Assembly: GCA_902812445.1 (NCBI GenBank)
Contig: CADDZF010000007.1
Coordinates: 1-47,244, forward strand
DNA: 47,244 nucleotides
Source: Methylococcaceae bacterium
Lineage (GTDB): Bacteria > Pseudomonadota > Gammaproteobacteria > Methylococcales > Methylococcaceae
Direction of reading: 5' to 3'
In this document: in pieces, positions 1,882 through 32,950 of the stretch
How the letters are laid out: each line of letters starts with the position of its first letter
How positions within the stretch are numbered: the first letter of the stretch is position 1
Notes under the pieces: model-generated
Database searches by the model: none
The model's input: the letters and a program-made list of their open reading frames with translations, nothing else
Told to the model about the DNA's origin: nothing
Program-made: the position numbers and the translations under genes

Positions 1882-2037
1882 TACCTTATTATTATTCCGG
1901 CCCGAAAATACCTTCCTGGTATTTCGGGCCATTGCCAAGGCCGATACACGCCCGGCCTTGGCTCACGCGGCTTGGCGCCGCGCTTTCGGCTCCCTGACCC
2001 TTTATTAACCCGGCCTATTTCAGGGCCGGATTAATAA
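1882..2037. repeat. 156-nt structured repeat, copy A (MITE/REP-like)
   Basis: Aligned by eye without gaps to 32795-32950, with about 12 substitutions in 156 positions. Near-perfect terminal inverted repeats are visible: TTATTATTCCGGCCC at 1889-1903 and GGGCCGGATTAATAA at 2023-2037, 14 of 15 positions complementary. Three stem-loops follow each other: 1899-1930 (13-14 bp, one bulge), 1934-1962 (10 bp) and 2004-2035 (about 13 bp). A weaker fourth stem near 1966-1981 exists only in this copy. The element begins 72 nt after the cytochrome stop and ends 73 nt before the stop of the convergent cusA-like gene. I see no target duplication and no reading frame in it. It could be a miniature transposable element, a bidirectional terminator or processing signal, or both. 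Confidence 0.9.
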
Positions 2038-8768: not shown

Positions 8769-9449
8769 TTGAGTGAGCAGAATCACATACGGAATCGCGT
8801 GAACTTCGGAGACCTTCGCCGCGTAACGCCGATCAGCCGCAATTTTGGCTGCGATAGGGGCCGCCCCATCGACCGCTATTACATCGAAAACTTTCTCGCC
8901 GCGCACGCCGAGGACATCCGGGGCCACGTTCTGGAGTTCGGCGACCCGTACTATACGCGCCGCTTCGGCGGCGATCGCGTGACCCGCAGTGATGTGTCTC
9001 ATGTCCAGCAAGGTAATCCGCAGGCTACGCTAATCGCCGATCTGGCGAGCGCCGAGGACCTTCCCGCGGAGACCTTCGACTGCATCATCTGCACCCAGGT
9101 CCTGATGTATATCTACCCCATCGGGGACGCGATCCGAACGCTCCACCGTATCTTGAAGCCGGGCGGCATCCTCTTGGCAACCTTTCCCGGCATCAGCCAG
9201 ATCAGCCGGCATGATATGGAGCAGTGGGGCGAATACTGGCGCTTCACGACGCTTTCGGCAAAGCGCCTGTTCGAGCAGGCCTTCGACTCGGGAAATGCCC
9301 TCGTGCAGGGTCATGGCAATGTGCTGGCAGCGATCGCTTTCCTGCACGGCCTGACCGTCGACGAACTGCAGATGGAGGAGCTGGATTATTGCGACCCGGA
9401 TTATGAGCTGTTGATCAGTGTGAGGGCGCTTAAAGGGACCGTTAGCTGA
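8769..9449 (+). CDS. Class I SAM-dependent methyltransferase
   Basis: A Rossmann-fold methyltransferase of about 226 residues. It begins with the conserved lead-in 'VNFGDLRRVTPISRNFG', followed by 'GHVLEFGDPYYTRRFGG' (SAM-binding motif I region), 'FDCIICTQVLMYIY' and 'LKPGGILLATFPG', and ends 'LDYCDPDYELLISVRA'. This family is common in surface-polysaccharide loci, often as or beside glycosyltransferases, but no such neighbours are present and the substrate is unknown. I prefer the TTG at 8769, preceded at 6 nt by GACGAGG, because homology starts right after it. In-frame upstream starts at 8682 and 8706 have poor ribosome sites. The gene stands alone, divergent from the cus operon. Confidence 0.75.
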   Translation: MSEQNHIRNRVNFGDLRRVTPISRNFGCDRGRPIDRYYIENFLAAHAEDIRGHVLEFGDPYYTRRFGGDRVTRSDVSHVQQGNPQATLIADLASAEDLPAETFDCIICTQVLMYIYPIGDAIRTLHRILKPGGILLATFPGISQISRHDMEQWGEYWRFTTLSAKRLFEQAFDSGNALVQGHGNVLAAIAFLHGLTVDELQMEELDYCDPDYELLISVRALKGTVS

Positions 9450-9638
9450 TGAACCATTAGCTGATAAAGTATGCGGCCAAGGCAAGGGTTCCGTGATCGC
9501 CCTCATCCTTGGCAGGCAAATGTGACCGTGCAGGCAAGATTCGGCTGAAGCTCGGCGTTGCCGTGGCCGCGACTCAGCTTTGAGTGAGCGGCGCGCCCGC
9601 TTGATTAATGGCCGTCAAACAGGAAAAATAGGGCATCG

Positions 9639-12014
9639 TTGACTACTCGATCGGTTGCCTACTTGGCTGAAGCAGACAGAAAGACTTTACCCAATGATGT
9701 GGCGGCACAGATGCTTCGCGGCCTGCGCGAAGCGGCGTTACTGGTGTGCACCGCGGCCGCCGTGTTTTTCCTCATTTCGCTGATCACCTTTGATCTCGAG
9801 GATCCGGGTTGGACCCATAACGGCAGCGGCGAGCCGCTGCATAACGCCGGCGGCGTGGTGGGCGCGTGGCTGGCCGATGTTGCCCTGGCCGCGTTCGGCC
9901 TCATGGCTTACCTGTTTCCCCTCATGCTCGCTCGCTACGGCTATTCGCTGGTAAAGAGCAACAGGCGGACCGGCGCTTCCTTCCGTCTCGCCCTATGGAG
10001 CCTGAGCGGTTGCGGCATCGCCAGCGCGCTCTCGGCCGGCGCGGCGCTCGCGGATGTCTATCTGGCCCGTGTGCCGATCGCGTTACCGGAAGGCAGCGGG
10101 GGCATCATCGGGCATGAATTCGCCGATCGGACCGCCGCCGCATTCGGCCATGCGGGCGCATCGCTGCTAATGCTGGCCGCCTTGCTGGCCGGCATCACGC
10201 TATTTTCCGGACTGTCGTGGCTGAAACTCGTTGACTGGGCGGGGAAATTCACCTTGCTGGCCGTGACGCACGGCTCTGCCGGCTTCGTCCGCGCGCTCGG
10301 TGCGTTCGCGGGCCGCCTGTCGGCGCTCGAGCAAGCGCCCTCTGCAGGGGCGGCCAAAAGCAAGTCCCGGGCGGCGAGAGTCGAACCGGTGGTCAAGCGC
10401 ACCGTCGAATCGCCCCGGGGCGAAATCACTCAGGACACCGTCAAGGAAACGGTCAGGGAGATTATCAGAGGAATCGCCAAAAAAGCAAAGCCGACAGTCA
10501 GTTACGCAGAAGCCAGCCCGGCGCAATTGCCACCGCTGTCGCTACTGCACGAGTCCTCGACGCGGATCAAGGGTTATTCGAAAGCGGCGCTGGATGATAT
10601 CGCCCGCCAGGTGGAAAGCATCCTGCGCGATTTCGGTATCGCGGTAGAGGTCGTCGGCGTCGAGCCGGGCCCGGTCATCACGCGCTTCGAGATCCAGCCG
10701 GCGGCGGGCATCAAGGCTAGCCGCATCAGCGCTCTGGCGCGCGATCTCGCCCGCGCGCTTTCGGTGACCAGCGTCAGAATCGTCGAAGTGATTCCGGGCA
10801 AGTCGGTGATCGGGCTCGAGATTCCCAACGAGGAGCGCGAGATCGTGCAGCTCCGCGCCGTGCTGGCCTCGGATGACTATCAGCACACCCCTTCGCCGCT
10901 GACGCTGGTGCTGGGCAAGGACATCGGCGGCAATCCGGTCGCCGCCAATCTCGCCCGGATGCCGCATCTGCTGGTCGCGGGCACTACCGGCTCGGGCAAA
11001 TCGGTCGCCGTCAACGTGATGATCCTGAGTCTACTCTATAAGGCGACGCCGGATCAGGTGCGCCTACTCATGATCGATCCGAAGATGCTGGAGCTGTCGG
11101 TGTACGAAGGCATTCCGCACCTTCTGGCGCCGGTGGTGACCGACATGAAGGAGGCGGCCAACGCGTTGCGCTGGTGTGTCGCCGAGATGGAGCGGCGCTA
11201 CAAGCTGATGTCGCTGCTGGGCGTCCGCAATCTGGCGGGATATAACCAGAAAGTGCTCGACGCGGCCGCGGCGGGAGAGCCGATCATCGATCCCATGCAG
11301 GTGCCGGGACCCTTCGCAGAGGGCGAGGAAGCGCCCGCGCTGGAGCCGTTGCCGTGTATCGTCATCATCATCGATGAACTGGCCGACATGATGATGATCG
11401 TCGGCAAAAAGGTGGAAGAGCTGATCGCCCGCCTGGCGCAAAAAGCCCGCGCCGCCGGCCTGCATCTGATTCTGGCGACCCAGCGGCCTTCGGTGGACGT
11501 GTTGACCGGCCTGATCAAGGCCAACATTCCGACGCGCATCGCGTTTCAGGTTTCCTCCAAGATCGATTCGCGCACGATCATCGACCAAAGCGGCGCCGAA
11601 GCCTTGCTGGGCAACGGCGACATGCTGTTTCTGCCACCGGGTAGCGGCATTCCCGCCCGCGTCCACGGCGCTTTCGTCAGCGATCAGGAAGTGCATGACG
11701 TGGTCGACTTTCTGAAGAAAACCGGGCGAGCCCGCTATATCGAGGAAATCACCCGCTTCTCGGAAGAGGGCGGCGATACGCCCGGCGGCTACCGCGCGGA
11801 ATCGAGCGACGCGCTCGACGCCCTGTACGATGAAGCCGTGCGCTTCGTCACGGAATCCCGCAAGGCGTCCATCTCGAGCGTGCAGCGACGCTTCAAGGTG
11901 GGTTATAACCGGGCCGCCCGCATGATCGAGGAAATGGAAAACGGCGGCATCGTCGGTCCCGCCGAAACCACTGGCTCGCGCGAGGTGCTGGCGCCGCCTC
12001 CGCCGGAGGCGTGA
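9639..12014 (+). CDS. ftsK: DNA translocase FtsK
   Basis: The septal DNA pump that clears chromosomes from the division site and activates XerCD at dif. The 791-residue protein has the short-linker architecture. The N-terminus has several membrane helices (within about residues 28-200). A short linker and alpha/beta domains follow, then the motor with Walker A 'GTTGSGKS' (G448, catalytic K454) and Walker B '[14 protein letters not shown]'. The C-terminal winged-helix gamma domain (about 725-785, '[21 protein letters not shown]') reads KOPS sites. The start is TTG at 9639 with AGGG just upstream. It is followed 7 nt later by lolA, the usual ftsK-lolA-rarA order of proteobacteria. Confidence 0.95.
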
Positions 12015-32794: not shown

Positions 32795-32950
32795 TACCTT
32801 ACTATTATTCCGGCCCGAAAATACCCCCCTGGTATTTCGGGCCATCGCCAAGGCCGGTACACGCCCAGCCTTGGCTCACACGGCTTGGCGCCTCGCTTTC
32901 GGCTCTCGGACCCTTTATTAACCCGGCCTAATTAAGGGCCGGATTAATAA
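32795..32950. repeat. 156-nt structured repeat, copy B (MITE/REP-like)
   Basis: Second copy of the element at 1882-2037, same orientation and same length. The 3' terminal repeat (GGGCCGGATTAATAA, 32936-32950) is identical, and the 5' one (32802-32816) differs by one base. The three shared stem-loops are kept: in stem 1 only the loop differs (TTCC to CCCC), in stem 3 two loop bases differ, and stem 2 loses one closing pair (CGGCC to CAGCC). The fourth stem of copy A is destroyed by two changes. It begins 12 nt after the nuclease stop. Confidence 0.9.

Follow-up and report, generated by a model that had tools for sequence, protein, structure and literature searches.

The closest described counterparts of the repeat analyzed here come from other bacterial hosts. 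RUP of pneumococcus is a 107-bp, non-coding, intergenic sequence of about 100 copies with ends like those of IS630-Spn1 and a TA target (PMC2229807), and the Correia/NEMIS elements of Neisseria, about 155 bp long, or about 107 bp in their shorter form, have long inverted ends, a terminal TA and transcripts that form stem-loops (PMC2229807). Promoters, an IHF site and a role in mRNA processing have been reported for Correia elements (PMC10969869). ERIC and other enterobacterial repeats are intergenic and carry terminal inverted repeats of 7 bp and a terminal TA, with no related insertion sequence (IS) named for them (PMC2229807). An open-access literature search for miniature inverted-repeat transposable elements (MITEs) in Methylococcaceae found no description, and an Rfam scan of the window, by which we mean the whole 47,244-nt stretch of Methylococcaceae DNA under analysis, returned no match at the gathering score, in agreement with an earlier note on this DNA that had recognized no known family. 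The note had likened the repeat to Correia/NEMIS in size and form, a comparison that was right in kind, namely to a small non-coding mobile element present in many copies.

Delimitation of the element and its ends

Two copies of the repeat lie in the window and align without gaps at 92% identity, at the places and with about the identity that had been reported. The span first given to them (1882-2037 and 32795-32950) was correct as to place and slightly too long: the outermost base at each end of that 156-nt repeat is flanking target, and the element proper measures 147 bp counting the TA at each end (Table 1). Just outside the left end, TACCTTA (window 1883-1889 and 32796-32802) is common to the two window copies only, a match that may be due to chance or to a weak site preference.

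The end repeats, TTATTATTCCGGCCC and GGGCCGGATTAATAA, match each other as inverted repeats at 14 of 15 positions, which bears out their description as near-perfect, and exact end matches numbered 64 in the genome against none for a reversed-pattern control. The flanks of 52 copies from the same genome had little in common beyond a pyrimidine on the left and a purine on the right; the base preceding TATTATTCC was a pyrimidine in 45 of the 52, and the base following the right TTAATA was a purine in 43 of 44. The typical length of the MITE is about 146 bp, and shorter forms of about 105-135 bp occur in the same genome. Some reading frames extend without a stop to about 47 codons at most, but indels separate the copies and none of the frames is conserved as a gene.

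Table 1 Features of the two window copies (positions in the window).
Feature	Position	Strand	Basis
MITE copy 1, including TA at each end	1890..2036	+	Copy alignment, own-genome search, flank comparison
MITE copy 2, including TA at each end	32803..32949	+	Copy alignment, own-genome search, flank comparison
Left terminal inverted repeat, copy 1, TATTATTCCGGCCCGAAAATACCTTCC	1890..1916	+	Family consensus matches right end of G013 IS630 element at 21/27
Right terminal inverted repeat, copy 1, inward reading TATTAATCCGGCCC	2023..2036	-	End-match search, comparison with IS ends
Left terminal inverted repeat, copy 2	32803..32816	+	End-match search
Right terminal inverted repeat, copy 2	32936..32949	-	End-match search
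Hairpin 1, copy 1	1899..1930	+	Predicted fold; kept across genera
Hairpin 2, copy 1	1934..1962	+	Predicted fold; compensated changes between lineages
Hairpin 3, copy 1	1966..1982	+	Predicted fold
Hairpin 4, copy 1	1986..1997	+	Weak in this copy; other genera have a strong form, GGGGCA/TGCCCC
Hairpin 5, copy 1	2003..2036	+	Internal end-repeat copy facing right end; unit also matches alone elsewhere in genome

Copy number and distribution

Far from being a two-copy repeat, as it had appeared from the window, the element is present in about 55 copies in its own 3.2-Mb Methylococcaceae genome. A search with a window copy as query recovered 40 places, nearly all at full length, and a covariance-model search, the course that the earlier note had recommended, recovered 57 places with scores of at least 85 bits, along with shorter fragments. 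We count about 55 copies and not 57 because at least one pair of contig-end matches, with an identical left flank (L094 on contig C140 and L105 on contig C126), is probably one copy seen at two contig ends. The right 34-50 bp of the element were also found alone in this genome.

Nine of 61 genomes contained the family (the own genome and close relatives), and a survey of 311 genomes of the order found it in 12. Eleven of these 12 belong to the window's own taxonomic family, one of them having a 21-bp match only; the twelfth, from another family, has a match of 26 bp that could have arisen by chance. Among 369 genomes sampled from the class, long matches occurred only in the own genome and in G008, and two others contained stretches of 29 and 36 bp. 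Three genomes of one related genus, G021, G014 and G026, had 69, 44 and 31 matches, respectively (E cut-off 1e-6), G003 had at least 12 copies, and the exact left end was present in records under the name 'Methylococcaceae bacterium isolate 8'. Searches with the element gave no match in plasmid, phage or viral collections.

Empty sites and duplication of the target

The joined flanks of 15 copies from the genus of G021, G014 and G026 were searched against four genomes of that genus. Orthologous sites lacking the element, which the earlier note had proposed looking for in sister strains, were found in sister species. Three insertions had clean empty sites, in which a single TA stands in place of the two at the occupied site: L132 against G021 (empty GTCTT-TA-ATGCAGC, occupied GTCTT-TA...TA-ATGCAGC), L134 against G014 (empty CTCGAGCAT-TA-ACCGG) and L123 against G014 (empty ATTG-TA-ATTATGG, with an identical ATTG-TA-ATTATG in G026). 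L131, compared with G030, is likewise empty, with a damaged left end, and makes a consistent fourth locus; the junctions of L130 and L122, where the relatives are too diverged, gave no confident reading. Insertion sites follow YTAR as a rule, and comparison of occupied with empty sites indicates that each insertion added the element and duplicated the TA. Because a G021 copy and a copy from another species, G026, are 97% identical and the occupied sites differ among species of one genus, the spread was recent enough to separate species.

Two other repeats were encountered in these flanks. The right flank of L125 (G026) contains GGATGGGTAGAGCGAAGCGAAACCC, a different repeat of very high abundance that matched dozens of places in G014, G021 and G026. 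The left flank of L128 (G014) contains another short one, about 45 bp long (query 2696-2744), which matched many places in G030.

A full-length IS630-family relative

The DDE_3 transposases of seven genomes were surveyed. G013 contains an intact IS630-family IS of 1116 bp in five identical copies, with ends TATTAACCCGGCCAAATAATACCGTAC and TATTAACCCGGCCATAAAATACCGTAC and a transposase of 345 aa that scored 238 bits against the NCBIfam IS630 model (cut-off 100) and contains Pfam DDE_3. The ends of our element agree with those of this IS at 17-21 of 27 positions, the right ends over the first 13 nt unbroken and the left end at 20-21 of 27. Agreement at 19 of 27 in a fixed register has a chance near 1e-6, a value that assumes equal base likelihood and is uncorrected for the several IS ends looked at. 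A second, decayed IS630 element with similar ends (TATTAACCAGGCCCCAAAATAG) is also present in G013.

The search of the own genome for an intact IS with matching ends yielded only relics and one contig-end fragment in a single copy, in which contig C111 ends inside a related IS630 element, with the end TATTAACCCCGGCC followed by 61 residues that share 77% identity with the G013 transposase. On the same contig, at 9145-10036, a decayed IS630 transposase adjoins the inward-facing end of the contig-cut element. G003 gave no DDE_3 match though copies are present, so the enzyme there would be lost, unassembled or of another kind.

Predicted fold and its conservation

Copy 1 and the family consensus are predicted to form five back-to-back hairpins, two more than the three stem-loops first described, and the two strands of copy 1, treated as single-stranded DNA, both fold much better than shuffled sequences (z of -7.0 and -8.2). 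Most genome consensuses form the five-hairpin chain; in that of G002, built from 4 copies, the minimum-energy fold departs from it in the middle, and hairpin 4 is weak in the own-genome consensus. The stems are also not generally untouched between the window copies, as had been claimed for stems 1 and 3, given that two changes in copy 2 (G to A and G to T) break hairpin 3 and alter the fold. Two variants of the interior were seen in the own genome: hairpin 1 of L029 (contig C33) has its interior inverted relative to most copies, and the region of hairpin 4, which lies between hairpins 3 and 5, contains either CTTTCGGCTC or CCGGGCATC. These alternatives look as if they had been swapped between subfamilies, and CCGGGCATC resembles the form of other genera.

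Among 36 sequences, 10 pairs were changed on both sides, against 4.6 in shuffles and 5-9 with slid pairing. The clearest compensated changes are those of hairpin 2 (A-T to C-G between lineages; C-G to T-A in G003; A-T to T-A in G008), but the G002 and G030 consensuses break pairs in it. Changes within genomes are mostly breaking; in the own genome 158 of those in stems disrupt pairing and 52 preserve it, variability is 0.068 at stem positions against 0.048 in the rest, and there is no deficit of mutations at paired positions. Stem variability was clearly lower only in G003 and G026. Since stem changes mostly break pairs and variability in the stems is not clearly reduced, the fold is not maintained in each individual copy of the own genome, and the selection on structure deduced earlier from two copies was not upheld there. 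The comparison gives modest evidence for a possible constraint on the fold of source copies. That the five-hairpin chain is under selection on source copies across genera, the MITE depending on its interior fold and not on the ends alone, seems to us rather unlikely; folded single strands or transcripts might in that case, for example, join in transposition or protect the element.

Origin of the element and competing explanations

The repeat is short and non-coding, with terminal inverted repeats, TA duplication and many dispersed copies, as expected of a MITE, and it has ends in common with an IS630-family IS, that of G013, as expected of an IS630-derived one. We consider it, with a probability of about 0.9, to be a MITE with IS630-family ends that is moved in trans by the IS630-type transposase of a full-length relative. 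This DDE transposase would bind the ends (TATTAWYCCGGCC..AAATACC) and move the element, and insertion at YTAR sites would duplicate the TA. Comparison of genomes shows that the element is multicopy and keeps its ends, that the TA was duplicated at insertions with an empty counterpart, and that a related genome carries an intact IS with matching ends; movement of these copies by an IS630-class transposase is the best explanation of these findings. The hairpins, if they matter, would best be explained as serving the spread of the element, for example in excision or through folding of source-copy transcripts or single strands, and not the host. Against this explanation stand the imperfect match to the G013 IS ends, the state of the own genome's only close IS630 relative, contig-cut and in one copy, and the at least 12 copies in G003, which is yet without a DDE_3 match.

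Back-to-back hairpins and many, mostly intergenic copies would also suit a REPIN- or BIME-like element moved by a REP-associated tyrosine transposase (RAYT), with the hairpins as the recognized units. However, RAYT/IS200-type enzymes insert without TA duplication, and the TA duplicated at empty sites largely refutes such an origin; ends shared with an IS630-family IS are not expected of a RAYT either, and we hold this origin to be most improbable. The shortness of the repeat, taken alone, would agree with a degraded relic of repeated tandem or phage-derived DNA that is no transposable element, but its sharp ends and the lack of matches in phage, plasmid and viral collections speak against this, and the empty sites refute it, leaving it a negligible probability.

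The recurrence of the hairpins in most genome consensuses, the compensated changes in hairpin 2 and the superior folding of both strands could instead reflect a host-useful structured RNA or mRNA 3' element (a terminator, a stabilizer or an RNase III site) that spread by mobility and was then kept for its fold. Its stems, though, change within genomes mostly by breaking pairs, insertions vary between sister species, and the two window copies had no match to a sigma-70 promoter or an intrinsic terminator. Orientation to genes is likewise unbiased: simple ORF calling, which is approximate, placed the copies between gene pairs in 9 ++, 16 --, 8 convergent and 8 divergent arrangements, so that the position 3' of plus-strand genes noted for the window copies is no rule. 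We regard a host function of this kind as very unlikely; a role in mRNA processing, by analogy with Correia, is possible. The window also encodes, on the plus strand (389-1807), a cytochrome-like protein that resembles Rox rubber dioxygenases and a di-haem peroxidase family, with scores below all curated cut-offs.

Comparison with known systems

The IS630-related MITE adds to Methylococcaceae an abundant, evolutionarily recent repeat, undescribed in the open-access papers searched and in Rfam, and defines it along with the family of transposases probably responsible for its movement, an aid to annotation and strain comparison in methanotrophs. Because genome consensuses mostly keep the hairpin chain while single copies decay freely, the family also makes it possible to ask, as a natural test, if the spread of a MITE depends on its interior.

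The G013 IS resembles the element in end sequence and in its YTAR-like sites at most copies, and differs in carrying a transposase gene and at 6-10 of 27 end positions. ERIC is similar in being intergenic with terminal inverted repeats and a terminal TA, whereas its repeats are of 7 bp and the cited source names no related IS for it, and an IS relative was found here. Compared by description alone, Correia/NEMIS are alike in size, shorter forms, inverted ends and terminal TA, but possess a 24-bp Neisseria end repeat, and promoters are reported for them, to which the two Methylococcaceae window copies had no match. RUP with IS630-Spn1, compared by described features alone, shares the non-coding nature, IS630-family-like ends and TA target, and by this analogy the Methylococcaceae element would work in the same way; RUP has another host and another length, and the five-hairpin interior and the range over several genera belong to the Methylococcaceae element. 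The latter is best classed as a new IS630-related MITE family of Methylococcaceae, of a well-known kind and unusual mainly in that nearly all of it folds, as predicted, into five side-by-side hairpins kept across several genera.
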